A stretch of DNA of 64,000 nucleotides from Chloroflexi bacterium HGW-Chloroflexi-10. Lineage in GTDB: Bacteria > Chloroflexota > Anaerolineae > Anaerolineales > Anaerolineaceae. A program made the position numbers and the translations under genes. Every line of letters starts with the position of its first letter. Positions within the stretch are counted from its first letter, which is position 1. Below the pieces are notes generated by a model. The model saw only the letters and a program-made list of their open reading frames with translations. It was not told where the DNA came from and searched no databases. The DNA is taken from positions 62,001 to 126,000 of the forward strand of contig PHBZ01000005.1 in assembly GCA_002840755.1 (NCBI GenBank), given 5' to 3'. Shown here piece by piece: positions 7,855 through 45,313 of this stretch.

Positions 7855-8718
7855 ATGCAAAACTTCCCTATTCTTGGAATCATTGGCGGTACAGGCGTTT
7901 ATCAATTTGACGCCATTTCCGATCTAACACAAACCGAAGTCAGCACACCCTTTGGTAAACCGAGTTCGCCGGTAATGACCGGCACGCTTGCCGGGAAAAA
8001 AGTAGCATTTCTCGCCAGGCACGGCCTGGGCCACAATTTATCACCTACAGAGGTGAACTACCGCGCCAATATTTTTGCCTTGAAATCCATGGGGATCAGG
8101 CATGTCATTTCCATTTCAGCTTGCGGGTCTCTGCGGCATGACTTCGCTCCGGGGGATATTGTCATTCCGGACCAACTGGTGGACTTCACCAAAAGCCGTA
8201 AAAATTCTTTTTTTGAAGGTGGACTGGTGGCCCACGTTGGAACTGCCGACCCTTTTTGTGCGCATTTATCCAGCCAACTTTTTGAAGCCGTCCAACCTAC
8301 CGGCGCGAATATCCACATGGGAGGGACTTTTGTTACCATTGAAGGGCCGCGATTTTCCACCAAAGCAGAATCAAATTTGTTCCGCTCCTGGGGAATGTCC
8401 ATCATCGGAATGACAGCTTCTCCTGAGGCCTTTCTGGCAAGGGAAGCTGAAATGTGTTACGCCGCCTTCGCCCATGTTACGGATTATGATGTGTGGCATC
8501 AAACCGAAGATCCGGTTACGGTTGAAATGATCATTAAAATTCTGCATCGCAATGCGGCAATCGCCCAATCCGCGATTGTTAATCTCGTCTCCGCCTTTGA
8601 ACCACAGCATTGTGAGTGTCAGGATGCGCTTAAAACGGCACTAACCACATCGCCAGAGGCAGTGGACCACAGCGCTAAACAAAAACTAGGCTTATTGGTC
8701 GAAAAATATCTCCCGTGA
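7855..8718 (+). CDS. mtnP: S-methyl-5'-thioadenosine phosphorylase
   Basis: 287 residues of the PNP/MTAP family. The enzyme cleaves methylthioadenosine to adenine and methylthioribose 1-phosphate in methionine salvage. LGIIGGTGVYQFD, FLARHGLGHNLSPTEVNYRAN and TFVTIEGPRFSTKAES are typical MTAP blocks. GMTASPEAFLAREAEMCYA carries the Asp-less, Ser/Thr-type base-recognition region expected for MTAP rather than PNP. It sits between the FHA genes and the FtsW fusion and shares a four-base GTGA overlap with the latter, so it is probably cotranscribed with cell-wall genes. Confidence 0.93.
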   Translation: MQNFPILGIIGGTGVYQFDAISDLTQTEVSTPFGKPSSPVMTGTLAGKKVAFLARHGLGHNLSPTEVNYRANIFALKSMGIRHVISISACGSLRHDFAPGDIVIPDQLVDFTKSRKNSFFEGGLVAHVGTADPFCAHLSSQLFEAVQPTGANIHMGGTFVTIEGPRFSTKAESNLFRSWGMSIIGMTASPEAFLAREAEMCYAAFAHVTDYDVWHQTEDPVTVEMIIKILHRNAAIAQSAIVNLVSAFEPQHCECQDALKTALTTSPEAVDHSAKQKLGLLVEKYLP

Positions 8719-11294
8719 ATCTTTATCGAACTCTTTCCAGCGGAGATCGTGATTTCCTGCAAGCCATGCTCTACCGGTGGGCTGGTGTTTTTCTCTTTCT
8801 TTACAGCCTGATCCTTACATTTGCACCGGCTGTTCGTTACCACAGCTGGAATGTTGATCTGCGCTGGCAGCATTGGGCCGGATTCATAGTTTGGTGTATT
8901 TCGGCTTTTTGTCTGAATTATCTGACCAAAAAAAAATACCCCAACCGGGATCCATACCTGCTGCCGATCATCAGCATATTAATGGGCCTGGGATTATTGA
9001 CAATTTTTCGTTTGAACGTCAGTTACGGCTGGCGACAAACCATTTGGTTTTCGTTGGCAACCTGCGCAGTGCTGATCACTATCTGGAAATCCGAATATCT
9101 GGTTCATATCCGCCGCTTTAAATATATCTGGCTCTTTTTGGGCCTGATCATCACTGGTCTCACATTTTTCTTCGGTATTTACCCGAATGGGACTGGCCCA
9201 AATCTATGGTTAGAATTTGGTGGTTTGTATATCCAGCCCTCCGAACCGCTGAAACTCTTATTTATTGTTTACCTGGCCGCTTTTTTGGCTGATCAATGGC
9301 CATCGCGCCACAATCTGATGTCCCTGATTGTTCCCACCATGGTCATGGGATCTGCTGCGCTGCTGGTATTATTTGCGCAAAGGGATCTCGGAACAGCATC
9401 CATATTTATTTTGTTATATGCTTTTTTTATTTTTCTGGTTACCGGAAAAAGACGCACTCTGGTGATTTTTGTGATCATTTTAGTGGCTGCCGGCTTTACC
9501 GGATATGAATTGTTTGATGTGATCCGCATCCGGATGGAAGCCTGGACAAACCCCTGGGTGGACCCCGCCGGACGCTCTTATCAGATCATCCAATCCATCC
9601 AGGCCATTGCCGCAGGAGGAATCCTGGGGAGTGGTCCGGGGTTGGGAAGTCCCGGATTGATCCCGGTTGCCATCTCGGATTTTATTTTTGCTGCAATTGT
9701 TGAAGAGCTCGGATTTGTTGGCGCTTTAGCTATATTTGCTTTATTCGCATTTCTGGCTTTTCGCGGCTTTCTGATCACGATTAAAGCGCGCAACCAATAC
9801 CACCAACTACTGGCCGCAGGAATCACCGCCTTTTTCAGTATTCAGTCTATTCTCATCCTGGGTGGGAACACACGCCTGCTTCCCTTAACCGGAGTAACAC
9901 TGCCGTTTATTTCGTATGGTGGTTCTTCATTACTCACCTGCTGCCTGGCAGCCGCTCTTCTATTATGGGTCAGTCAGTTTCAATCCACCCGTCCGATTGC
10001 CATGACCGCAACCCAACCATACTTTTTTACCTTAACCCTGATCATTCTTGCATTCGCGTCCCTCAGCCTGGTCACCGGGTGGTGGTCGATTATTCGTGCA
10101 GACAATCTACTCTCCAGAACGGATAATTTTCGAAGGGTGATTAACGATCGTTATGTTCTGCGGGGCGCAATTCTGGACCGCAACAATAATCCCATTGCCG
10201 TGACGGATGGGAGTGTAAGTGAATATACCCGGTTGCTGAACCAACCATCCTTATCGGCAACTGTGGGTTATCTTAACCCGCTGTATGGATTGGGTGGCCT
10301 AGAATCTTCAATGGATCCGTATTTGCGTGGTTTGCAGGGCTTACCATCTTCAACTGTATGGCTTAACCAATTGCTATACAATCAGCCTCCTCAGGGAAGA
10401 GACATACGTACCAGTATCGATCTCAATATTCAAAGCAAATTGGTCAGCTCTCTGGAAAACAATCAGGGCGCCGCGGTCATCTTAAATGCCCAAACCGGCG
10501 AAGTTTTGGCACTTTGGACTGCGCCAAGTTTCGATGCGAATCAATTGGTTGAAAACTGGGAAAGCTGGAAATCAGATCCCAGTGCGCCTCTGGTAAACCG
10601 TGTAACCCAGGGCCAATATACGGTTAATACGGCTTTGGCGCCTTTTCTGATAGCACAACAACAAGGCTATATTGCTTTCAACGAACATGTGACCGCACTC
10701 AATACTTGTCTTGAATTACAAAAAAGCATCAATTCACAACCAGCCTGCCAAACCCAATTGCAAAATCTGATTTACGCTTTTCCCGAGGAAGACATTCCAA
10801 ACCTAATTTCTCAATTCCATTGGGATGAAAGCCTGGCTTTCGCATTACCCAATGCACCGGCAGTTGTTGTACCCGCGACACCGGATGAAGAATATCTTGC
10901 TCAGACATTAAAGCTCTCACCGCTGCAAGTGGCCGTTTCTGCCGCAGCGTTTTCTCAGTCCGGGGTGGTGCCTGCCCCACGGATTGCCAATGCGGTCCAT
11001 ACACCCCACCTGGATTGGGTGGTATTTGCTAACGAAAATTCACAAACGATCATGACAACAACAGCGGCCGCCGCCACAGCCAATCTCTTTGCGCGAATGG
11101 ATTTACCGGCATGGGATCTTACCACCCAAACAAGCGGTCAGGAGCAGGATACCCAATGGTATCTTTCCGGTACCAATCCGGAGTGGCCGGGGACCCCCTT
11201 TATTCTGGTGATTGTGTTGGAAAATGGAGAACTCAATCCATTACAAATAATTGGAAGGTCAATAATGGACCAGCTCATGGGAGCCGTACCATAA
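8715..11294 (+). CDS. FtsW/RodA-type SEDS protein fused to a degenerate penicillin-binding domain
   Basis: 859 residues. Residues ~20-430 form a multi-span SEDS glycosyltransferase with LWLEFGGLYIQPSEPLKL, the loop SDFIFAAIVEELGF containing the conserved Asp, and LPFISYGGSSLL. After a further membrane segment (~435-455), residues ~470-859 resemble the periplasmic transpeptidase region of a class B PBP (GAILDRNNNPIA, AAVILNAQTGEVLALW). The catalytic motifs are missing. Where Ser-x-x-Lys is expected (~630) there is QGQYTVNTA, and near 801 the Lys-Thr-Gly motif is replaced by TQTSGQ. The polymerase half is probably active while the PBP half may be a structural activator. Confidence 0.88.
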   Translation: MNLYRTLSSGDRDFLQAMLYRWAGVFLFLYSLILTFAPAVRYHSWNVDLRWQHWAGFIVWCISAFCLNYLTKKKYPNRDPYLLPIISILMGLGLLTIFRLNVSYGWRQTIWFSLATCAVLITIWKSEYLVHIRRFKYIWLFLGLIITGLTFFFGIYPNGTGPNLWLEFGGLYIQPSEPLKLLFIVYLAAFLADQWPSRHNLMSLIVPTMVMGSAALLVLFAQRDLGTASIFILLYAFFIFLVTGKRRTLVIFVIILVAAGFTGYELFDVIRIRMEAWTNPWVDPAGRSYQIIQSIQAIAAGGILGSGPGLGSPGLIPVAISDFIFAAIVEELGFVGALAIFALFAFLAFRGFLITIKARNQYHQLLAAGITAFFSIQSILILGGNTRLLPLTGVTLPFISYGGSSLLTCCLAAALLLWVSQFQSTRPIAMTATQPYFFTLTLIILAFASLSLVTGWWSIIRADNLLSRTDNFRRVINDRYVLRGAILDRNNNPIAVTDGSVSEYTRLLNQPSLSATVGYLNPLYGLGGLESSMDPYLRGLQGLPSSTVWLNQLLYNQPPQGRDIRTSIDLNIQSKLVSSLENNQGAAVILNAQTGEVLALWTAPSFDANQLVENWESWKSDPSAPLVNRVTQGQYTVNTALAPFLIAQQQGYIAFNEHVTALNTCLELQKSINSQPACQTQLQNLIYAFPEEDIPNLISQFHWDESLAFALPNAPAVVVPATPDEEYLAQTLKLSPLQVAVSAAAFSQSGVVPAPRIANAVHTPHLDWVVFANENSQTIMTTTAAAATANLFARMDLPAWDLTTQTSGQEQDTQWYLSGTNPEWPGTPFILVIVLENGELNPLQIIGRSIMDQLMGAVP

Positions 11295-29523: not shown

Positions 29524-30438
29524 CTATTTGCTTTCGAGTTTGCGATTGATCTCTACGAGATAGTCCAATTGGTGCGTAATAAAGGTCAATTCACCGCATT
29601 TAATTTGTTCATGGCGCGTGCTCAGCCAATTCATCAGGGTTTCCTGGCTGAGATCACCTACCGGTAACACACTCTGAGCAAAAAATTGCAGGATGAAGTG
29701 CAAAAAATAAGCCTCATCCAGTGCATATTGATTTTGCTGTGGAAATACCACCCAATCCGAAGCGCCCATTGCGCAAATTTTTGCACCGCTATGTTGAAAC
29801 GCCGTATACAATTTCCTTCCGGAAAAACGCCCGGCACTGTTTGCATTGTTCACCATGCGTTCATCCATGCTGCGATGATACAACTCCAGGATAAATTGGT
29901 CTTCTGCCAGTTCCGGAATAAATATAGTTTCGCCATCAAAATTTATACTGGCATATAACCAACCGTTCGCAACAACTTTCCGGTATATTTCCGGTAAAAC
30001 AGTATCCGGATTTACCAGATCAAAAAACGCATTCGCCACCACCCCATCCAGACTGTGATCCTCAATCGTGTCCAAGTCGTACACATCACCAATCAGAAAA
30101 CAAACTCGCACGTGGCATCCGGATTTGGAAAGTATGAGGAGATCATCCTCTTGCTGAACCAGGTATGCGTTCTGACGAGCATAGTCGCTAATCCACCAAT
30201 AGGCAGATTCTATATTTTCTACCGAAACATCCATCAACGTATAATCCACCCGCAAATCCGGAATCCTCTCCAGCCAACGCACCAACATGGTGCCAATCCC
30301 AGCCCCGATTTCCAGTACCACATTGTTTTCTTTTTTTTGCAGTTGTTCTATCATCTGTTGAAAAACTGTTGGATTAAGGGCACGGTCATCCACACTTTTT
30401 TTGGCAGCGAGGTAATGTCCAAAATCAGAAAGTTTCAA
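29524..30438 (-). CDS. Class I SAM-dependent methyltransferase
   Basis: 304 residues. VVLEIGAGIGTMLVRW is the SAM-binding motif I, YTLMDVS is the acidic motif II position, and DGVVANAFFDLVNPD plus VVANGWLYASINF follow the methyltransferase fold. The last ~110 residues are a separate C-terminal region of unknown role. It is the last gene of the nine-gene RibA/PTPS cluster, four bases after the glycosyltransferase stop. Its acceptor might be the pathway product, by position only. Confidence 0.85.
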   Translation of the reverse strand: MKLSDFGHYLAAKKSVDDRALNPTVFQQMIEQLQKKENNVVLEIGAGIGTMLVRWLERIPDLRVDYTLMDVSVENIESAYWWISDYARQNAYLVQQEDDLLILSKSGCHVRVCFLIGDVYDLDTIEDHSLDGVVANAFFDLVNPDTVLPEIYRKVVANGWLYASINFDGETIFIPELAEDQFILELYHRSMDERMVNNANSAGRFSGRKLYTAFQHSGAKICAMGASDWVVFPQQNQYALDEAYFLHFILQFFAQSVLPVGDLSQETLMNWLSTRHEQIKCGELTFITHQLDYLVEINRKLESK

Positions 30439-30441
30439 AGT

Positions 30442-31533
30442 TTATTTTCCTTTTTCATTCACCCTTGATAATAAATAATTACGAATAGCCTCCCCAGTAT
30501 TTTCCCAGGTAGGAAATTTACGAAACTTTTGCATTGCAGCGATTCCCATCCCCGCCAGCTGGCTGCGATCTTCGATAATACAACGCAATCTTTCCGCAAG
30601 CACCGGCACATCTTCCACCGGCACCAAATAGCCATCCTGCCCCGAAAAAATAATTTCACGGGCGCCGCCGGCTGTAGTCGCAATAGGGACTACTCCAAAA
30701 CCCATCGCTTCCAGGTATACAATTCCAAAACCTTCGTAGGTTGATGGCACTACCAACGAATGGCTTTCCATAAATTTTTCCTTCAGCTGCTCAGCAGGTA
30801 GTTTTCCAAAAAACTCCACTTTTTTTTCCAGATTTTTCGCCTCGACCAAACGATGGATTTGCTGAATATAATCGGGGTCTACATCCATTTTCCCTATAAT
30901 GGATAATTGCCAATCCAGATCAGGAATTAAACCCAGGCTTTCTATCAATGTATGCAATCCCTTCCTGGGAATAATATTACCAACGAATAACAATTTAAAT
31001 GGGCCGGATGCATGAGCCCGTTGGACTATTGTGTGCGGTGAAATGGTTGCTTCAAAACGATTACCGGAGGGATACGCCACCACCCCGGAGACTTTTTCTC
31101 CACGCAGGGCTTCGACAGCATGGCGGGTCGCCTCGCTGTTAAAAATAAATCCATCAATCGACTGAAGGTACGCTTTTTCCACCTGCCTGTAGATCCATTT
31201 CAAACTTTTTGGGTGTTTTTCGCTGGTTCTGAGATGGTGAACAATAGAAATAACCGGATAGCTGGTTCGCTCTACCAATCGTTGGTTCATCCAGGCAAAA
31301 GAAGGATGGTTTAATTCATCCTGAACCAGCACATCAACATCCAGATTATAAAAACGGTCAACTGTGGATTGCGTAAAATTGTGGCTTAGATGGAAAAAAT
31401 AATTTTGCCAGGGTAAAGTAATCACCTGCACCTGGTCTCCACAGGATTGCATATATTCCACCAACATACGGTCGTACAGATATCCACCGGATAATGTTTC
31501 CAAGCTTCCGTAAATAGCCAGGCCTACCCGCAC
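30442..31533 (-). CDS. Glycosyltransferase family 4 protein
   Basis: 363 residues, GT-B fold. The donor domain has KLLFVGNIIPRKGLHTLIES and VVPSTYEGFGIVYLEAMGFG with the Glu-x7-Glu motif of GT4 retaining enzymes, then ATTAGGAREIIFSG. The N-terminus IYGSLETLSGGYLYDRML is the acceptor side. No membrane segment is seen. It lies between the PTPS-like and methyltransferase genes with two- and three-base gaps, so it probably glycosylates the product of this operon. Donor sugar unknown. Confidence 0.9.
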   Translation of the reverse strand: MRVGLAIYGSLETLSGGYLYDRMLVEYMQSCGDQVQVITLPWQNYFFHLSHNFTQSTVDRFYNLDVDVLVQDELNHPSFAWMNQRLVERTSYPVISIVHHLRTSEKHPKSLKWIYRQVEKAYLQSIDGFIFNSEATRHAVEALRGEKVSGVVAYPSGNRFEATISPHTIVQRAHASGPFKLLFVGNIIPRKGLHTLIESLGLIPDLDWQLSIIGKMDVDPDYIQQIHRLVEAKNLEKKVEFFGKLPAEQLKEKFMESHSLVVPSTYEGFGIVYLEAMGFGVVPIATTAGGAREIIFSGQDGYLVPVEDVPVLAERLRCIIEDRSQLAGMGIAAMQKFRKFPTWENTGEAIRNYLLSRVNEKGK

Positions 31534-31535
31534 GG

Positions 31536-31913
31536 CTACAGTTCCCTTTCCATTGCGGCATAAGCATCATTGGTTTCCCATAATACGATGCGCAGCCTTG
31601 AAATATTGTCAAAATTCAACTGTACCGCCACCTGCTGGTAAATTTCGCCTACAAAACGTTCCAATGATGGATTGATTGCTTCAAATTCAGGCAAGTCATT
31701 CAGCAATTGATTCTCATATTTTTCCATGAGCTTTTTTAATACATCTTCGACTACGGTGATATCCACCAGATACCCGTGTTGATCCAGGGTATTTCCAAAC
31801 AAATGAATTTCCAGGCGGTAGGGATGCGCATGCGGAAAATTTTCTTTTCCCCAATCCCCACCAATCAGAAAATGACGAGCAATAAAATCTCGCTGCACAT
31901 TAATTTCATACAT
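31536..31913 (-). CDS. 6-pyruvoyltetrahydropterin synthase-like protein (PTPS/QueD family, Glu variant)
   Basis: 125 residues, T-fold. ARHFLIGG supplies the first zinc His (14), and ENFPHAHPYRLEI the other two (His28, His30). Where PTPS and QueD have Cys-x3-His-Gly-His, this protein has Glu24-x3-His28-Ala-His30. That Glu-for-Cys change marks the PTPS-III type known from apicomplexans and some bacteria, which makes 6-hydroxymethyldihydropterin. DQHGYLVDI and LERFVGEIYQQV are further family blocks. ATG 31913 follows a GGAGG and overlaps the upstream dehydrogenase gene by eight bases. It is not a clear QueD, since no queuosine genes are near. Confidence 0.87.
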   Translation of the reverse strand: MYEINVQRDFIARHFLIGGDWGKENFPHAHPYRLEIHLFGNTLDQHGYLVDITVVEDVLKKLMEKYENQLLNDLPEFEAINPSLERFVGEIYQQVAVQLNFDNISRLRIVLWETNDAYAAMEREL

Positions 31914-32964
31914 GGTTACTTTTTCCTCCAACCTGATAATCAAAAACAATCTGCAAAGTATCCTGCGGGTCTTGATCCAGCAGGCGATAAGCTTTTTCGG
32001 CATCATCCGGTTTAAATCGTTGTGTAATCCATTTTGCCGGCCGGATTCTCTCAATTTGCTGCCAGACGATGGTCTGCAGTCTTTTTTTGTCCCACCGTGC
32101 CATCAGTTTAGGAGAAATATGGCTGACCTGACTGCTAATCAGTTGAATCCGCTGCCGGTGAAAGCGCGTTCCTAAATCCAGGGTTACCACCTTATTCCCA
32201 TACCAGGAACCCACAACGACTCTACCGGCATATCCGGCCATATCGATTGATTGCTGCAATGCAGCGGGCGACCCCGAACATTCAACCACGGCATCCACCC
32301 CATAAGCGCTGCCTAATTGCACTCTTTCCTGTGCAATCCTGGATAAAAATTCATTTGGCGGTAACAACTTATCCAATAGGAGCACACTGGCAAAATTTCT
32401 TCTTTGCTCTGCTGGTTCCAATGCAATCAATCGCCCAAGCGGGAACTGCGCCAATAATGCGGCGGTCAACAGGCCGACAACACCTAAACCCTGTACAACC
32501 ACTTCTTCGCCGATGAGCGGTTGAAGATCCTGTACAAGATTGATAGCTGTTTCCATATTTGGGAAAAAAACCGCGTCTTCATCTGATATTTCGTTGGGAA
32601 TGGGAATGAGCTGAGCCACATCACACCACAATACGGATTGGTGAGCGGCAAACACGAATACCCTTCGCCCAACCCATTCTGCCAGGAATGGTGAAACAGA
32701 GGCTTCCACAATGCCCACCAACGCATACCCATAAGCAAGTGGATAGTTCGCTGTTTGGGCCAAAGTGGTTATGTTTTCATCCAGCGGTACGCCAGGCGGA
32801 AACTGCCCGCGGTATACCAATAGCTCTGTGCCCGGGCTGATCCCACTAAGCAGAACTCGCACCCTCACCTGGTTTGCTTGTGGATGCGGCAATTCCTCTG
32901 TTATGGTTTCCACCTGATAGGGTGCCTGAAAAATGATTCTTTGCTGCCTAAGGTTGCTGTTCAT
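31906..32964 (-). CDS. MDR-superfamily dehydrogenase, BchC-like, lacking the usual zinc ligands
   Basis: 352 residues of the medium-chain dehydrogenase fold. The nucleotide motif is VVVQGLGVVGLLTAALLA, with E in ALEP at the ribose-binding position favouring NAD. Where alcohol dehydrogenases have Gly-Ile-Cys-Gly-Thr-Asp, this has SGISPGTELLVYRG, so the catalytic-zinc Cys is absent; the structural-zinc cysteines are absent as well. It is therefore probably a zinc-free reductase, as in the BchC-like branch. ATG 32964 overlaps the upstream reductase gene. The substrate may be a pyrimidine, pterin or sugar intermediate, by context only. Confidence 0.85.
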   Translation of the reverse strand: MNSNLRQQRIIFQAPYQVETITEELPHPQANQVRVRVLLSGISPGTELLVYRGQFPPGVPLDENITTLAQTANYPLAYGYALVGIVEASVSPFLAEWVGRRVFVFAAHQSVLWCDVAQLIPIPNEISDEDAVFFPNMETAINLVQDLQPLIGEEVVVQGLGVVGLLTAALLAQFPLGRLIALEPAEQRRNFASVLLLDKLLPPNEFLSRIAQERVQLGSAYGVDAVVECSGSPAALQQSIDMAGYAGRVVVGSWYGNKVVTLDLGTRFHRQRIQLISSQVSHISPKLMARWDKKRLQTIVWQQIERIRPAKWITQRFKPDDAEKAYRLLDQDPQDTLQIVFDYQVGGKSNHV

Positions 32965-33655
32965 TCTTCCCCACAATGACAATATCCTCACCGATCAACT
33001 CAACCTGTGGGTCATTCAATCTTACCGCTTTGGCGAGTCGTTCGTTAACCACCCGGTAGCCACCCATCCACCGGGGTGCTACCGTAATCACCGCCAGATC
33101 CCATAAACCACTGGTTAAAAAAGATTGCAATACCTCCCCACCGCCCTCCACCATCAGGTTGGTCAAACCCACCTCTTCCAATTTTTCCAATACTTCACCC
33201 AGATCCAAACGACCCTGCCTGGCATCAAGTGGAATGACTGTAAAACCGGCTCGCTTATACAATTCCAGTCGCTGAGGATCTACCTTGCTGTCGCAAAACA
33301 ACAACGGATGGCGCGTATCCGTCAGCAGTCTGGCATCCACAGGCGTCCGCAATTGTGAATCGAGAATCACCGGCCTGGGATTACCTCCCGCAGCATAGCG
33401 CACGTTTAATTGCGGGTTATCTGCCAGCAGCGTGCCAACTCCCACCATAATTCCCGCATGCATAGCACGTAGCTGGTGCGTCAGCTGCAACGATTGCGGT
33501 CCACTGATATCCGAAGATTGACCTCGCTCAACTGTAATCGCCCCATCCAGACTCTGAGCGTATGCCAGGGTTACCAGTGGGCGCCGCATATCGCCTGCTG
33601 CAAGAATATTCAGTTGATCTTTAATCCAGGCCGAGATGTTTGCTGCCATGTCCAT
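32948..33655 (-). CDS. RibD C-terminal (DHFR-like) reductase, stand-alone
   Basis: 235 residues of the RibD C-terminal/dihydrofolate-reductase-like fold, without the N-terminal deaminase of bifunctional RibD. RPLVTLAYAQSLDGAI, LRAMHAGIMVGVGTLLADNP, RPVILDSQLRTP and LMVEGGGEVLQSFL are diagnostic. Such proteins reduce the ribosyl chain of diaminopyrimidine phosphates with NADPH. It overlaps ribA by 35 bases and may act straight on the RibA product, as in archaeal and fungal riboflavin synthesis. ATG 33649 is an alternative start. Confidence 0.92.
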   Translation of the reverse strand: MDMAANISAWIKDQLNILAAGDMRRPLVTLAYAQSLDGAITVERGQSSDISGPQSLQLTHQLRAMHAGIMVGVGTLLADNPQLNVRYAAGGNPRPVILDSQLRTPVDARLLTDTRHPLLFCDSKVDPQRLELYKRAGFTVIPLDARQGRLDLGEVLEKLEEVGLTNLMVEGGGEVLQSFLTSGLWDLAVITVAPRWMGGYRVVNERLAKAVRLNDPQVELIGEDIVIVGKNEQQP

Positions 33656-34283
33656 TCTTTCGGGGTACCGGTTGCAGACCATCAAGATTTAAAAAATGGT
33701 TCATCCGCACCGCTTTGGTGAACAAATAGGTGGCATTATTTGCCAATATCTGCGCGGTAGCTGGGACCCGCGTATTGATTTGTACATTATATTTTTGTAA
33801 CTGGCTGATTTTTTCGGGGTTATTCGTAATTAAGCGAATGGAGCCTACTCCAAGGTCTTGCAGCATGGCAGCTGCAACTCCATAATCACGTTCATCGGCC
33901 AAATGGCCTAACACAAGATTGGCATCCACCGTATCCAGACCCTGATCCTGCAGATTATAAGCACGTAATTTTTCAAGCAGGCCAATCCCGCGCCCTTCCT
34001 GGCGCAAGTACAGAACTATGCCCTGACCTTCCGCTTCGATCAGGCGCATCGCGTTTTGAAGCTGTTCACCACAATCGCAACGCTGCGAACCTAAAATATC
34101 TCCGGTAAAACATTCGGAATGGACGCGCACCAGAACATTTTCTTCCTGATCCACAATTCCTTTTACCAGAGCGAGATGCTCTTTCTGATCCCGGTTACTG
34201 GTGTATAAAACCAATTGAAAGTCCCCAAACTGAGAAGGCAGCCGGGTTACGACCCTTCTTTCTACAACTATATTCGTTTTCAT
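33621..34283 (-). CDS. ribA: GTP cyclohydrolase II
   Basis: 220 residues. It converts GTP to 2,5-diamino-6-ribosylamino-4(3H)-pyrimidinone 5'-phosphate, formate and pyrophosphate. The zinc site is SECFTGDILGSQRCDCGEQL; LYLRQEGRGIGL holds the catalytic Arg and LITNNPEKI binds the substrate. No RibB domain is attached. ATG 34283 has GAGG seven bases upstream. Together with the next gene it could feed either riboflavin or the putative pathway encoded by this operon. Confidence 0.95.
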   Translation of the reverse strand: MKTNIVVERRVVTRLPSQFGDFQLVLYTSNRDQKEHLALVKGIVDQEENVLVRVHSECFTGDILGSQRCDCGEQLQNAMRLIEAEGQGIVLYLRQEGRGIGLLEKLRAYNLQDQGLDTVDANLVLGHLADERDYGVAAAMLQDLGVGSIRLITNNPEKISQLQKYNVQINTRVPATAQILANNATYLFTKAVRMNHFLNLDGLQPVPRKNGHGSKHLGLD

Positions 34284-34291
34284 AATTTTCC

Positions 34292-34636
34292 TCATACTTG
34301 TTTCTTTGGCGCTTCCAAAAAAAGGAAAACTACCAATGCAATTTCAACCAGCTTATCGATATATCCAATCGGCGTATAAGGCTGGCCAAGAAAGACCCAT
34401 AACACAATGGTTAAACTGGTGAAACCGATAAACAGCCATCGAATCCAGTGTTTATATACCGCCAAAAAAGAGAACGGCGCTAACCACAAGGCTAACAAAC
34501 CCAGATACCCCAGAGCGTTCAAGGTAAATAGGATATCGATTTTTCCTAACAACACATTCAGATAAAAATGGATACCTGCCGTGATCAATGTAAGCACAAT
34601 GATGAAAATTCTACGAATTGGATTTTTACCATTCAA
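34292..34636 (-). CDS. Small integral membrane protein of unknown function
   Basis: 114 residues with four predicted membrane segments (about 10-28, 38-56, 62-80, 92-110) and a basic C-terminus. I do not recognise the family. Its start overlaps the stop of the flippase-like gene by four bases and it precedes ribA by eight bases, so it belongs to the operon. It could be a membrane partner of the flippase-like protein. Confidence 0.65.
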   Translation of the reverse strand: MNGKNPIRRIFIIVLTLITAGIHFYLNVLLGKIDILFTLNALGYLGLLALWLAPFSFLAVYKHWIRWLFIGFTSLTIVLWVFLGQPYTPIGYIDKLVEIALVVFLFLEAPKKQV

Positions 34637-35649
34637 GATTTCACCTCCACAATTGAATCTTTTTTATTTAATAGCCACAATCCAAACCCTAAACCAATAC
34701 AACCAAAAATGACATCCCGCAATCGAATGATAACTGCCGCCCCGATACCAAAGGCCGGGTTAACCTGCAAAAGCTGCATAGCCGCCACCTGAGCAGCTTC
34801 CAACGCACCCAAACCGCCTGGAAGTGGCGTAAGGAATGCCAGACGTGCAGCGATAACAGCCACCCAAACACCGGTTAAAGGCAACTCTAACCCTAAAAAC
34901 TGAAGCAGCACAGCATATTCCAGAATCATCAGGCCCCAGGTAGCCGCAGCCACAACGAGAACTTTTAAAAAATCCTGCGGTCGGGTTTGAACATATTCAC
35001 CAATCCTGGCTTCCGATTGATGCACCACTCTCGCCCAACCCGTTACGCGCTGCGACTTGCTCCGATACCCAATCCATTCCAGCAAAGCAGAGAAAGGGAG
35101 TTTTTTGAAATATAAACTAAACAGATGGGCTGCCGGCAGGCTGACTAACAGCACAACCCACCAAAACTGAAAGACGGCAGCCCTGTCTTCCATAATTCCA
35201 GCTGCCAACAGCCAGAAGAAGCCGATTACCAATACGCTCAGATTTACCAATAAGTCTATTATCCGGTCCAGATATACCGAAGAAAGCGCCATCTCTGTCG
35301 GTAATCCGTGTTTCTGTTTCAATAGAACTACCTGCGCCGGTTCACCGCCAAACTGCGGGCCAGGTGTAAAGTAACTGATGCCAAAACTTACCAGACGATA
35401 AGCCAGTAGAGAATAAAAGCCAATCTTTGCCCCCATTGAAACGAGCAATATCTGCCAACGAACCGTAAAAAGAGAAAAAATAGCAATGTTTATGAATAAG
35501 AGAATAGCAATCTCTCCCGCATGCAATGCCAGAAAAATCGCAGTCAGATCAGCCCAGGAAAACTGACGGAAAGACCATCCCATCAGCAACATCACCGGCA
35601 AAAGCAGCAATAAACCAAGCCACCAATTCTGCTTAATCCTGTCGCGCAA
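34633..35649 (-). CDS. Lysylphosphatidylglycerol synthase transmembrane / UPF0104-type membrane protein
   Basis: 338 residues, about eight membrane segments. FGISYFTPGPQFGGEPAQVV and LPGGLGALEAAQVAAM are the hallmarks of the LPG_synthase_TM (DUF2156-less AglD/UPF0104) family, which includes flippase-like proteins of lipid-linked sugars. There is no soluble lysyltransferase domain. It overlaps the CDP-alcohol transferase gene by 17 bases. Together they suggest that the operon product is attached to or moved with a membrane lipid. Confidence 0.85.
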   Translation of the reverse strand: MRDRIKQNWWLGLLLLLPVMLLMGWSFRQFSWADLTAIFLALHAGEIAILLFINIAIFSLFTVRWQILLVSMGAKIGFYSLLAYRLVSFGISYFTPGPQFGGEPAQVVLLKQKHGLPTEMALSSVYLDRIIDLLVNLSVLVIGFFWLLAAGIMEDRAAVFQFWWVVLLVSLPAAHLFSLYFKKLPFSALLEWIGYRSKSQRVTGWARVVHQSEARIGEYVQTRPQDFLKVLVVAAATWGLMILEYAVLLQFLGLELPLTGVWVAVIAARLAFLTPLPGGLGALEAAQVAAMQLLQVNPAFGIGAAVIIRLRDVIFGCIGLGFGLWLLNKKDSIVEVKS

Positions 35650-36769
35650 GTTTCACCTCACCCAGCCGGTGGTAGACGATCCAATCTTCCGGTCGCCACA
35701 ACGAAAAACGCCCGGTGCCGTTGACAAAGATCAAAATACCAAATACCAACACCAGCCAACCCCATACATCCATCGAAGCTGCTCGCAACCAGAACCCGGC
35801 AGTTAACATTAAACCAAACGCTGCCAACCTGCCGGCCAGTCCGAATATGCACAGCGCACTTAAAACCATCACCAACCATGCAGGGACAGGAATTATCGGC
35901 TGGAGATACAGCAGCATTCCGACCAATCCAAGCAACCCCAACCGCCAAATCCATGCCAGCCAGGCGAAGATTGGCTTCCGCAAATCAAAGTTAACCCGCT
36001 TGCCACTTACTGCCAGGTAATCCAGCATAAATGAAAACAGAAAAGGCGCCATCAGGAGATAACTGGCGATATGGGTTGCCGGTGGGGTAAACACCGGGAA
36101 CAACAGCGCCGCCAACAGCCCCATTTGCAAGCCAGCGAGCCCACGCCGCAGCGGGTTGGGCGGTAAATCAAAAACCGGCAATCCCTGTCGTTCACGGACA
36201 CGAATGCCCCACAAATACAGATAACGCGCCATGCCTACCACGACAAACAGCAGCGGCGCCTGCCCATTCAAAACCACCAGCAGACTGGCCGTCAGAATCC
36301 CCAAGCCGTCCAGCTCAATATCCAGCAATTCACCCATACGGGTCATCGAATGCGTCAAACGCGCTACTGCTCCATCCGCGTAGTCCAGCAATGCCGCAGC
36401 CAGGTACAATAGCGCCGGAACCCAGGCACTGATGCCCTTCAGGTCACTCAGAAATAAAAAACCGGCCAAAAAAGCCACCAGTGCGCCTCGGCCAATCGTC
36501 ATCCAGTTCGCCGCCCCCAGCCCGTCGTTCACCTTAACCTGCCCGTCTGCACGATTCTCTGGCAGAAACCGCAACAACATTCTCGCCTGCCACACCAGGA
36601 GCGCCCCGCTGATCAAAGCGCCTACCAGCCCGGGTAAAACCGCCTGTGTTTGTTGCAGCCAAACCAAAAAAAATAGCCACACAGACCCCACCAACATCTG
36701 CCATCCCCAAAACCGCCGGATTAAACCGACCGAAAAAACAGATAGAGTGGGTATGCGTTTAGCAGACAT
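35633..36769 (-). CDS. CDP-alcohol phosphatidyltransferase family membrane protein
   Basis: 378 residues, about nine to ten membrane segments. DYADGAVARLTHSMTRMGEL continues to LDIELD and fits the full catalytic pattern Asp-Gly-x2-Ala-Arg-x8-Gly-x3-Asp-x3-Asp. It is longer than ordinary PgsA-type enzymes owing to extra C-terminal helices. It is the first gene of the nine-gene cluster and overlaps the next one. The acceptor alcohol is unknown. No clear promoter or strong ribosome site is seen before the ATG. Confidence 0.87.
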   Translation of the reverse strand: MSAKRIPTLSVFSVGLIRRFWGWQMLVGSVWLFFLVWLQQTQAVLPGLVGALISGALLVWQARMLLRFLPENRADGQVKVNDGLGAANWMTIGRGALVAFLAGFLFLSDLKGISAWVPALLYLAAALLDYADGAVARLTHSMTRMGELLDIELDGLGILTASLLVVLNGQAPLLFVVVGMARYLYLWGIRVRERQGLPVFDLPPNPLRRGLAGLQMGLLAALLFPVFTPPATHIASYLLMAPFLFSFMLDYLAVSGKRVNFDLRKPIFAWLAWIWRLGLLGLVGMLLYLQPIIPVPAWLVMVLSALCIFGLAGRLAAFGLMLTAGFWLRAASMDVWGWLVLVFGILIFVNGTGRFSLWRPEDWIVYHRLGEVKLARQD

Positions 36770-36904: not shown

Positions 36905-37101
36905 AATTCCATCCACCATCCCCTTTGCTCAAATTGGTGAGGTTAGTTATTTTTACAACCGCTCTTCAGTCCCCACATGATTCTTCGCCACACTTTTTAT
37001 TTCTCCGCATAATGACAACTACTTGAATTTGTGTGACGTTTATTTAAATCTTCTCTGAGTTCACCACGAACATGGAATTACTTTCGTGATCACAAAAACC
37101 G

Positions 37102-37133
37102 AAATCCGGATTCCAACCCAAGAATCCGGATTT
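37102..37133 (-). terminator. Terminator of the xylose transporter operon
   Basis: Read on the minus strand, AAATCCGGATT (37133-37123) and AATCCGGATTT (37112-37102) form a perfect 11-bp stem with a ten-base loop, followed after CGG by five T residues. It lies 35 bases past the xylH stop codon. Each arm is itself palindromic (AATCCGGATT), 20 bases apart. Confidence 0.55.
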
Positions 37134-37168
37134 CTAAACCCAAAACCAATTTCGGAGGAACCCTTTTT

Positions 37169-41843: not shown

Positions 41844-44800
41844 TCAGAGTGTAAGCCGTTCAACCCCCAGCACAACCGATTCACCATCAAAATCACTGCT
41901 CACCTGGGGCATATCCACAGGCGGCAGAGCATCGCGCAATTCCAGCGCCAGCGTCTCATTCTTGATGTACTCTGCAAATGCACTCACCGCGCCGGTCAGC
42001 TTGGGTGTAGCTTGGAACAACACACGGATACGGTCAGCGATATCAAAATCAGCTGTCTTACGCAGATCCTGCACCCGGCGCACAAATTCACGTGCCAGAC
42101 CTTCCATCTCCAACTCAGGGGTCAATTCAGTCACCAGAGCCGCCAGGTAAGCGCCCTCGGCAGCCACAGCATAACCTTCTTTTGCGGTAGCACGTACTTC
42201 CACGTCTTCCGGCAATATCGAAACTGTCTCACCCTCTACCGTTATCATAACCGGCAGATTGTCCAGAAACGCCCTCGCGGCACTTTCTGAATCCAACGCC
42301 AGTATCGCGGAACGTATGGCGGGGAACCTTGGCCCATATTTTTGCCCCAATTGCTTGGGCAACGGTTTAACCTCATACGCTACTGCTTCGGCAGCAGCAT
42401 CCAAAACGCGTACGTGTTTAACATTCAATTCATCTTCAAGGATATCGGCATATTTTTCGACAATCGGACGATCATCCACATTGCCAACCGAGAAAGCAGC
42501 TACACTCAGTGGCTGACGCACCTTACGATTAGCCTTATTTCGCGCGGCATGCCCAACCGAAGCCAGTTTCATTACCAGGCTCATCTCCTGGTTAAGGGTT
42601 TCATCAATAGCTTCTGCGTCAAACTCCGGCCAGCTTTCCAGATGGACGGAAACAGGAGCCTGTGGATTAAAACTGCGGACCAGGTTCTGATGGAGGGTTT
42701 CGGCCATAAACGGCATGGTAGGCGCCAATAACTTACTGAGGGTCACCAATGCTTCGTAGAGAGTGGCATACGCTGCATATTTATCACCATCCGATTCGCT
42801 CTTCCAGAAGCGGCGGCGTGAGCGGCGCAGGAACCAGTTTGAAAGCTGATCCACAAACGTCTCAATCGGTCGGGTAGCACCTAATACATCATACGTTTCC
42901 AGTGCTTGCGAAACATCCCGCACCAGGGTATGCAGGGCACTGCGCACCCATCGATCCAGCGCGCTGTATTCCGGTTTTACCTGCGGGTCCGGTTTCCAAC
43001 CATCCAGATTGGCATATGTCACAAAGAAAGAATAGGTATTCCACAACGTCAGAGTAAAATTGCGCAATATTTCAGATACCAGATCACTGGAGAAGCGCCG
43101 TTCCTGTCCGGGCGGGCTGGCGGTGTAAAGATACCAGCGCATCGCATCGGCTCCATTTTTATTGATCACATCCCAAGGGCTGACTACATTTCCTTTGGAT
43201 TTGGACATCTTCTGACCATCACCATCCAGAATCAACCCGAGGCAAATCACATTCTTAAAAGCCACGCTATCATTCAGCAGAGTGCTGACGGCATGCAGCG
43301 AATAGAACCAGCCGCGTGTCTGATCGACAGCCTCGCAGATATAGTCTGCCGGGAACTGCTGCTTAAATTGCTCATGATTTTCAAAGGGGTAATGCCATTG
43401 AGCTACCGGCATCGAACCTGAGTCAAACCACACATCAATCAGCTCAGGTACACGGTGCATTTCGCCGCCACACTTCTGACAGGCAAAAGTGACATTGTCT
43501 ACATGCGGGCGGTGTAAATCCAACCCGGCTTGCTCTTTACCGGTCAACTGAGATAACTCGGCTACTGAACCAACACAATGCTTGTGTTTACATTCCTGGC
43601 ATTGCCAGACAGGCAGCGGCGTACCCCAATAACGTTCACGTCCCAAAGCCCAGTCCACATTATTGGATAACCAGTTACCAAAGCGCCCACTTTTAATGTG
43701 CCCGGGATACCAATTAATGGTTTCATTCAAAGCTACCAGGCGGTCTTTGAATGCGCTGGTACGGATATACCAGGTTGGACGGGCATAATACAGCAATGGG
43801 GTTGAACAACGCCAACAGAACGGGTATGTATGGATAATCTTACCGGTACGGAACAATAGCCCGCGTTCCTGCAAATTGGCTTCGATCTGCGGATCGGCAT
43901 CCTTCACAAACACACCTGCCCATGGGGTTATCTCATCCTTGAAACCGCCATCGGGTTTTACCGTTTGCAGAACAGGTAAATCATTTTCATGGGCTACAAC
44001 CATATCGTCTGCGCCAAATGCCGGAGCAATATGCACCAAACCGGATCCATCGTCAGTGGAAACAAAATCTCCGAGGATGACGCGATGCGCCGGTTTTTCC
44101 AGCGGCATAAAGCTGAACAAGGGTTCGTAGGTGATGCCAACCAGTTGAGCGCCTTTAAAGCGTTCCAGCAATGTTACCGGCTCTTCACCAAACACTTTCT
44201 CCACCAATGCTTCAGCCAGGATCAGTTTTTCGGTATGATCATCATGCAGCACCCGCTCTACTTTTACATAATCCACATCCGCGCCGGCAGCTACCGCCAC
44301 ATTGGCAGGAAGTGTCCAGGGTGTCGTCGTCCACACCAGCAGTGCTGTTTCGGGATCGCTCTTCAAACGCATGCGCACAAACACCGATGGATCTTCAGCA
44401 TCATCATAGCCCTGGGCCACCTCGTGGTCCGACAATGGTGTACCACAGCGTGGGCAATAAGGTACCACTTTAAAACCCTGGTATAGCAAATCTTTTTCCC
44501 AGAAGTTTTTCAAAATCCACCAGATCGACTCGACAAACGTATTGTCATAGGTAATATAGGCAGTTTTCAGATCCACCCAATAGCCAATGCGATCCGTCAA
44601 TTTTTCCCATTCCTGAATATAGGTAAAGGCAGACTCTTTACACAGTGCATTGAATTTTGCAATGCCATAATTTTCAATATCCTGTTTGTTGTGAAAACCT
44701 AATTGTTTTTCAACCTCAATCTCCACCGGCAACCCATGCGTATCCCATCCACCACGACGGGAAACATAATAACCACGCATGGTTTTATAACGCGGAAAAA

Positions 44801-44999
44801 TATCCTTGAAAGCTCGCGCCAATACATGGTGAACACCTGGACGGCCATTGGCGGTTGGCGGACCTTCATAAAATACGTATTCCGGTCCTCCACGGCGTTC
44901 CTGGAGAGTTTTTTGAAAAATATCTTCATCTTTCCAGAATTGTAAAATTTCTTCCTCACTCTGGTTGACATTCAATTTCGGCGTTACAGGTTTGAACAT
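41844..44999 (-). CDS. ileS: Isoleucyl-tRNA synthetase, IleRS2-like with GxHH signature
   Basis: 1051 residues, class I. After PPTANGRP the HIGH signature position reads Gly55-Val-His-His58 instead of His-x-Gly-His. The KMSKS loop is [15 protein letters not shown]. The editing domain ([20 protein letters not shown]) and a long C-terminal region are present. [24 protein letters not shown] matches the eukaryote-like IleRS2 branch. GxHH forms of IleRS2 are known to confer very high mupirocin resistance. ATG 44999 has GGAGG six bases upstream. Expression is under a T-box leader. Confidence 0.96.
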   Translation of the reverse strand: [1051 protein letters not shown]

Positions 45000-45014
45000 T
45001 CTGCCTCCTGGTTT

Positions 45015-45300
45015 TAAATAAAAAATCCCGTCCACAATTCAGGGACGGGAAGGATTCCCGCGGTACCACCCTGCTTCTCACCAAGAAAAGCGAGCACTTA
45101 ATCGGATGCATCGTCGTGTCAACGAGAGATCCGCGCCTTGCTAACGATTGGCGAAACCGTCTCACTTACTGACAGTGATGCACTGCGTTCAGATTGAAAC
45201 TCCGGAAGGATTTTCCACATTTTGATCTGACCCGGCTTACACCATTTCCAGGCTCGCTGACAGTCTCAAAACTGCGTACTCGTTTCCATCACAGCTTTTT
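45015..45300 (-). ncRNA. T-box leader (isoleucine) of ileS
   Basis: The T-box sequence AGGGTGGTACCGCGGG lies at 45072-45057 on the minus strand. It is followed by a terminator: CCCGTCC (45049-45043) pairs with GGACGGG (45033-45027), then six T residues. Upstream, Stem I elements (GATGGAAACGAGTA near 45290-45275) are present, and the specifier is probably ATC (Ile) at 45226-45224. Uncharged tRNA(Ile) pairing with the UGGN of the T-box would favour antitermination and ileS expression. Confidence 0.92.
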
Positions 45301-45313
45301 TGAATTGAACAGA

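Follow-up and report, generated by a model that had tools for sequence, protein, structure and literature searches.

The window analysed here, a stretch of 64,000 nucleotides from the genome of Chloroflexi bacterium HGW-Chloroflexi-10, carries at positions 29524-36769 an operon that, with a probability of about 0.85, is dedicated to a product made from GTP that is neither riboflavin nor coenzyme F420. The operon consists of nine minus-strand open reading frames (ORFs) that overlap or are spaced by at most 3 nt. In order of transcription, they encode a CDP-alcohol phosphatidyltransferase, an LPG_synthase_TM flippase-like protein, a small membrane protein, GTP cyclohydrolase II (RibA), a RibD_C reductase, an MDR dehydrogenase, a PTPS-like protein, a GT4 glycosyltransferase and a class I methyltransferase. 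ORF coordinates and Pfam matches agree with the nine tightly packed genes and the domains named in an initial annotation of this DNA, and the reading proposed there, a dedicated operon for a pyrimidine- or pterin-type compound, is supported by the results below. The host (G000; an assembly of 6.57 Mb, 99.61% complete and 6.67% contaminated, with the window on contig 69) belongs to the Anaerolineaceae (Chloroflexota), the family of Bellilinea.

Conservation of the gene order

The initial annotation had made its reading depend on conservation of the gene order, and the order is indeed kept in 16 neighbourhoods of relatives, in 80 loci examined together with a control, across families of the order and outside the phylum. 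The PTPS-like protein has matches in 18 of 61 genomes, namely G000, 16 further genomes at 45-55% identity and G042, whose match is weak. Around the 16 homologs, GT4 is present in 15 cases, MDR in 13, RibD_C in 10 and RibA in nine, some contigs ending within the operon. With the same protein, 471 relatives were recovered from GTDB species genomes, and the best 80 of them were analysed. Operon genes and controls were sought in these 80 loci by tblastn, which finds membrane proteins poorly, and among broken contigs of metagenome-assembled genomes (MAGs). The most frequent companions of PTPS (trivially present in all 80, as the loci were picked by it) are GT4 (78) and MDR (68), followed by the methyltransferase (39), RibD_C (29), RibA (28), a PlsC-type acyltransferase (28), the flippase (24), the small membrane protein (23) and the CDP-alcohol transferase (9). 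At least one of the CDP-alcohol transferase, flippase or PlsC-type genes occurs in 41 loci. RibA and RibD_C go together: both are found in 28 loci, and RibD_C alone in one (L083). The control consisted of the 46 remaining window ORFs of at least 150 aa, which were recovered in 0-8 of the same loci, against 24-80 for the operon ORFs of that size, the CDP-alcohol transferase excepted. It should be noted that the sets of 16 neighbourhoods and 80 loci overlap (the RibA rows of L021 and L052 are identical) and hence are not independent. The PTPS profile has matches at 1e-3 in 151 of 400 Chloroflexota genomes; of the matches listed, 30 exceed 150 bits and the next scores 86.9. Records of cultured strains carrying the operon include Bellilinea caldifistulae, Thermanaerothrix daxensis and Methylomonas.

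Some loci contain further genes. A ComB-type phosphatase (PF04029), which might remove the ribityl phosphate, and a Na/H exchanger (PF00999) are found in 16 and 10, respectively, of the best 80 of 471 loci; in L026, L029 and related loci such genes sit between MDR and PTPS. G042 and G041 encode a different COG0720 protein (L019 and L020; 29-31% identity), around which the stretches fetched yielded no operon genes.

Riboflavin capacity of the host genomes

The initial annotation also raised the question of whether a full riboflavin set lies elsewhere in the genome. No match to lumazine synthase (RibH, PF00885) or riboflavin synthase (PF00677) was found in G000, in which the operon RibA is the sole PF00925 match; RibB was not searched for. 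Of 14 named genomes used as positive controls, the first profile matched all 14 and the second 11. CofH was likewise not detected in G000 (TIGR03551 at 1e-3). Because RibA in G000 has neither riboflavin end-enzymes nor CofH to feed, its product there should be whatever the operon makes.

We then compared 30 genomes, comprising 17 carriers of the window-type PTPS (G000 included) and 13 non-carriers chosen from the 44 others of the 61; G042, with its weak match to a second type of PTPS, was among those left unchosen. RibA is present in 17 of 17 carriers versus 1 of 13 chosen non-carriers (G049), with a Fisher value of 1.5e-7 that is only a guide, because the genomes are related and nine of the 16 other carriers hold RibA inside the PTPS neighbourhood. 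RibD_C matches of at least 130 bits show the same partition (17 of 17 and 1 of 13); among the other non-carriers the highest score is 89.8. More telling than the Fisher value are seven carriers (G008, G041, G045, G047, G050, G058 and G060) in which RibA is encoded elsewhere in the assembly, outside the PTPS neighbourhood. In G008 and G041 this RibA is accompanied by RibD_C and MDR next to the end of a contig, in G045 RibD_C and MDR are adjacent on another contig, and in the riboflavin-making G050 the PTPS operon retains RibD_C without RibA. We consider the Anaerolineales a clean test of the operon product.

Only three genomes of the panel (G045, G050 and G058) possess RibH and riboflavin synthase; the remaining 27 match neither, so riboflavin auxotrophy seems common in the order. 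A second RibA beside a divergent RibD_C, in genomes without RibH, was observed at L042, L044 and L046 (in G049, G047 and G060), and a MoaA- or MobA-like ORF, named by eye from its translation, is located some kb from these pairs.

Spread beyond Chloroflexota

The best 80 loci include three Methylomonas genomes, one Methylococcaceae MAG and one Geobacteraceae MAG. Each Methylomonas genome (L079, L093, L095) encodes three RibAs, namely the operon copy, one less than 1 kb from RibH and one elsewhere; four Anaerolineales genomes accessed via named loci, including Bellilinea and Thermanaerothrix, contain a single RibA each, and RibH was not found in them. In a tree built from 52 RibA rows, a single clade of 40 (96/96) unites the RibA of the window with those of the clusters, including the Methylomonas ones; two riboflavin RibBAs and five off-cluster RibAs lie outside it. 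With its RibA nested in the Chloroflexota clade, the simplest account is that Methylomonas would have acquired the operon by transfer.

Related clusters are also carried on Streptomyces, rhizobial, methanotroph and haloarchaeal plasmids. Searches with the window PTPS gave 11 plasmid records and those with SCO6650, a PTPS-IV protein of Streptomyces coelicolor, 21 (Palleronia being common to both); 20 regions were read, 19 of them annotated (the Arthrobacter one was not). The dehydrogenase is the preceding same-strand gene of PTPS in 17 of the 19 annotated regions, with one opposite-strand gene between the two in Natronorubrum, and a glycosyltransferase follows PTPS directly in 12 and lies within the stretch in three more. 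Annotations further include a CDP-alcohol phosphatidyltransferase (10 regions, spanning archaea, actinobacteria and proteobacteria), RibD (8), RibA (5), cytochrome b (4), a flippase-like or LPG synthase TM protein (4), GTP cyclohydrolase IIa, or GCH III (2), and creatininase (2); creatininase-family genes are found in the H. sinaiiensis and Streptomyces fungicidicus regions.

The haloarchaeal clusters provide what we regard as the best sign of where the pathway begins. The clusters of Haloarcula pelagica and H. halophila run from the CDP-alcohol transferase through GTP cyclohydrolase IIa, the dehydrogenase and PTPS to the methyltransferase, with the cyclohydrolase (PF05165, 276.5 bits in the one tested) in the slot of RibA. 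GTP is opened both by GTP cyclohydrolase II (GCH II) and by the unrelated GCH III, the latter yielding a formyl intermediate that is processed by a creatininase-family deformylase. Since two unrelated families fill the same slot, the opening of GTP is likely to be step one.

Two further observations concern these searches. In the PTPS-IV clusters L141, L143, L147 and L148 a cytochrome b gene lies beside RibD; the single one tested is a cytochrome b561. Three stretches matched a pattern for viral copies of PTPS, none of which could be confirmed.

Protein families of the operon

RibA is a bona fide member of its family (TIGR00505, 259.4 bits versus a cut-off of 205.85) and has the zinc-binding cysteines HSECFTGDILGSQRCDCG. 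The three-Cys motif is kept in all 39 cluster rows (36 distinct); five plasmid rows miss the strict pattern, four of them keeping a CDCG variant. The RibD_C protein has no fused deaminase and scores below the cut-off for the bacterial bifunctional RibD (TIGR00326, 102.8 versus 156.35); its best solved match is 6p8c (5.3e-29), a reductase named for the undeaminated pyrimidine. The GHE motif is absent from all 95 MDR rows, 72 of which have SxISxGTE (SGISPGTE in the window protein), and matches to BchC and Tdh are weak and under cut-off.

An AlphaFold2 model of the PTPS-like protein (mean pLDDT 90.6; residues 19-21 below 50) has a T-fold. SCO6650 (PDB 3d7j, where it is named ‘Uncharacterized protein’) is both the best fold match (E 4.6e-11, TM 0.84) and the best profile match (E 1.2e-14), and QueD structures are also among the best fold matches. 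At the position of the QueD Cys, which we take to be the residue mutated to Ala in 4ntk, the 17 alignment rows have an invariant Glu; the QueD Asp-His pair is replaced, and His14, His30 and a C-terminal Trp-Glu are invariant. The initial annotation had invoked the remodelling of dihydropterin side chains by PTPS-family enzymes; with the presumed catalytic residues of QueD lacking, such ordinary chemistry is not expected here. The motif GGDWGxENxx[HN]xH is found in 94 of 96 PTPS rows. Haloarchaeal rows keep the Glu and HSH, and PTPS-IV rows have FGPAQ (FGSAQ in one) and HGA.

Published motifs are CxxxHGH for QueD/PTPS-I and ExxHGH for PTPS-III (available text of PMC5041015) and FGPAQ for PTPS-IV (available text of PMC5445326). 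The corresponding segment of the window protein is ENFPHAH, which fits neither of the first two. The protein scores 47.9 with the QueD model versus a cut-off of 89.25, its Glu precedes the first His by four residues instead of three, and HAH takes the place of HGH. Membership of PTPS-IV was rejected as well, WGKEN being found at the place of FGPAQ and the window protein falling in a separate group of the tree; RibA and RibD_C neighbours, as in PTPS-IV, are present in the window and in 28 and 29 of the 80 loci. Because of the signature, we classify the protein as a neighbour of PTPS-IV and not a member. It probably binds a 2-amino pyrimidine or pterin and aids its cyclisation or isomerisation.

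Operon layout and flanking sequences

A gap of 399 nt containing a terminator-like hairpin parts the operon from ABC-transporter genes upstream, and lspA follows 116 nt downstream. As 13 terminator-like sites were found versus 9.5 expected, the hairpin is weak evidence when taken alone, and a scan for promoter-like sites (8 found versus 12.4 expected) was uninformative. No flavin mononucleotide (FMN) riboswitch was found before the operon; at the Rfam gathering threshold the sole match in the window is a T-box leader elsewhere (RF00230, 101.7 bits, 45038-45301, minus strand), directly before a class I tRNA synthetase ORF (41844-45035). Elsewhere in the window (8715-11294, plus strand), an 859-aa ORF joins an FtsW/RodA-type domain to a penicillin-binding transpeptidase domain.

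Table 1. Features of the operon and its upstream border, in order of transcription; coordinates are those of the window. SAM, S-adenosylmethionine.
Feature	Position	Strand	Evidence
Terminator-like hairpin, 14 pairs, between upstream ABC permease gene and operon	37101..37134	-	consensus scan
CDP-alcohol phosphatidyltransferase family protein, 378 aa	35633..36769	-	CDP-OH_P_transf PF01066 1.4e-15
LPG_synthase_TM / flippase-like membrane protein, 338 aa	34633..35649	-	PF03706 8.9e-36; TIGR00374 over cut-off
Small membrane protein, 114 aa	34292..34636	-	weak DUF7475 match 2.5e-4, below cut-off
RibA, GTP cyclohydrolase II, 224 aa	33621..34295	-	GTP_cyclohydro2 PF00925 1.2e-70; TIGR00505 over cut-off; three-Cys motif
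RibD_C reductase without deaminase domain, longest ORF 245 aa, later start possible	32948..33685	-	PF01872 1.9e-42
MDR dehydrogenase, longest ORF, start at 32964 likely	31906..32991	-	ADH_zinc_N PF00107 1.9e-9
PTPS-like T-fold protein, 125 aa; longest ORF from 32054	31536..31913	-	PTPS PF01242 3.3e-24
GT4 glycosyltransferase, 363 aa	30442..31533	-	Glycos_transf_1 PF00534 1.1e-33
Class I SAM-dependent methyltransferase, 304 aa	29524..30438	-	Methyltransf_11 PF08241 2.1e-6

Proposed pathway and alternatives

We infer every reaction of the pathway, the order of the steps, the product and its lipid link as follows. The nine-gene operon would have only its first chemistry, starting from GTP, in common with riboflavin synthesis. 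RibA would convert GTP to 2,5-diamino-6-ribosylamino-4(3H)-pyrimidinone 5'-phosphate, the sugar of which the deaminase-less RibD_C would reduce to ribityl, a reaction that fungi and archaea also use. Oxidation or cyclisation of the chain by the MDR dehydrogenase and the PTPS-like protein may follow and would produce a 2-amino pyrimidine or pterin bearing a polyol side chain, to which GT4 would add a sugar and the methyltransferase a methyl group. Finally, the CDP-alcohol transferase, joined elsewhere by the PlsC-type acyltransferase, could attach a phospholipid anchor, and the LPG_synthase_TM protein could flip the lipid-anchored product. A ribityl or diaminopyrimidine core appears likely, and judging from the gene families the product is likely to be glycosylated and methylated; the outline as a whole, up to the glycosylated, methylated core and with the lipid link left aside, is favoured by a small measure. 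The same kind of evidence makes a lipid-anchored product conceivable, at slightly less than even odds. A bolder extension, which we regard as doubtful, is a membrane cofactor shared by Bacteria and haloarchaea, that is, a phospholipid with a glycosylated, methylated ribityl-pterin or diaminopyrimidine head for which GCH II and GCH III would be interchangeable; that it would in effect be an FMN-like head on a lipid is a speculation of the same order. A role as membrane electron carrier would agree with the gene annotated as cytochrome b in four of the 19 plasmid regions that carry annotation. If the product does prove to be a lipid-anchored pterin or flavin analogue, it would represent a new cofactor class in two domains of life.

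Several observations weigh against a dedicated pathway of this shape. RibA and RibD_C occur in only 28 and 29 of the 80 loci (off-cluster copies were checked in some genomes only), MDR-PTPS-GT4 is the steadier core, and the first two enzymes could therefore be optional. The count for the CDP-alcohol transferase, nine, is not clear of the control maximum of eight and is not taken as evidence there. G049 has RibA and RibD_C but no PTPS; the riboflavin-making G058 has PTPS without other operon genes and a RibA that comes in two pieces and contains a stop; two Streptomyces plasmids likewise hold PTPS without the cluster. The five plasmid-cluster RibAs fall outside the clade of 40, the Streptomyces one on a long branch with the riboflavin RibBAs; RibA may therefore have been recruited more than once, and a shared origin of the whole pathway cannot be inferred. 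Nor can one shared reaction be inferred for the PTPS-like proteins, since their residues differ among the three groups.

The steadiness of the MDR-PTPS-GT4 core and the rarity of the CDP-alcohol transferase (9 of 80) would suit a soluble glycosylated, methylated pterin or pyrimidine made by RibA, RibD_C, MDR, PTPS, GT4 and the methyltransferase, with the membrane genes serving otherwise, and the Halobellus and Halomicrococcus stretches indeed contain no lipid gene. We consider such a product unlikely, given that 41 of the 80 loci hold one or more lipid-type genes and that the CDP-alcohol transferase is annotated in 10 of 19 plasmid regions. RibA has been proposed to stand in for folate supply in Chlamydia, and an operon supplying dihydropterin for folate where GTP cyclohydrolase I (FolE) is absent would be in line with the lack of detectable FolE and FolE2 in G000 and G002. 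However, 12 of 17 carriers (and 7 of 13 non-carriers) do have FolE, and neither enzyme was found in the four searched, of six, same-genus genomes without the operon, so that FolE loss does not follow the operon; GT4, the methyltransferase and the lipid genes would also be left unaccounted for. A folate role is thus very improbable overall; in G000 it is probably not the explanation, though set aside there less firmly than roles in riboflavin or F420 synthesis.

The remaining two explanations were set aside with still more confidence. A ribityl-pyrimidine is a precursor of F420, which haloarchaea make. The available text of PMC5041015 places PTPS-IV in F420 synthesis, as unpublished work, and calls the role of PTPS-V unclear. 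Against a supply of F420 by PTPS and its neighbours stand the missing CofH match in G000 and the distribution of CofH in the panel, with matches at 1e-3 in eight of 30 genomes and strong ones in G039 alone (335 and 287 bits versus a cut-off of 374), as well as the absence of the PTPS-IV signature from the window protein; we regard this role as highly implausible. Scarcely more credible is the view that riboflavin synthesis left RibA and RibD_C behind as relics or salvage parts, with unrelated genes around them. Loss of that pathway is common, as the 27 of 30 genomes without RibH and riboflavin synthase matches illustrate, but the intact three-Cys motif of the cluster RibAs, the conserved gene order and the three Methylomonas genomes that hold the operon in addition to a separate RibA near RibH all argue against decay, and in G000 the operon copy of RibA is the only one. 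Collectively, the dedicated GTP-derived product remains our preferred reading, and RibA or RibD_C alone should not be taken as a sign of riboflavin synthesis in these groups.

Comparison with known systems

Four known systems resemble the operon in part. QueD (PTPS-I) of queuosine synthesis shares the T-fold with the PTPS-like protein, which differs in scoring under the cut-off of the QueD model and in having Glu for Cys. Pterin glycosides such as limipterin and cyanopterin also combine a pterin with a glycosyltransferase; they start from GTP cyclohydrolase I and dihydroneopterin triphosphate, whereas the operon uses RibA or GCH III and includes lipid genes. In the archaeal riboflavin branch, which consists of ArfA (GCH III), the creatininase-family deformylase ArfB and the reductase ArfC, GTP is similarly opened and an undeaminated pyrimidine reduced, and genes for GCH III and creatininase-family proteins occur in or near the haloarchaeal clusters; unlike that branch, the operon has additional GT4, methyltransferase and lipid genes, and RibH and riboflavin synthase were not found in G000.

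The initial annotation had called the operon undescribed. This holds for the cluster as a whole and its product, of which no description was found in the open-licence literature (subscription work may exist), but not for the association at its centre: cluster 62 of PMC5445326 (2017) already places PF00925 (labelled FolE2 there) and PF01872 beside PTPS-IV of COG0720, and the available texts of that paper and PMC5041015 leave the product of SCO6650-type clusters open. The window protein differs from PTPS-IV in lacking FGPAQ, in having GGDWGxEN and a second His, and in forming a separate group in the tree. Nevertheless, PTPS-IV, represented by SCO6650, is its best profile and fold match and has RibA and RibD_C neighbours, and the dehydrogenase, GT4, methyltransferase and CDP-alcohol transferase are also present in the PTPS-IV regions that were read.

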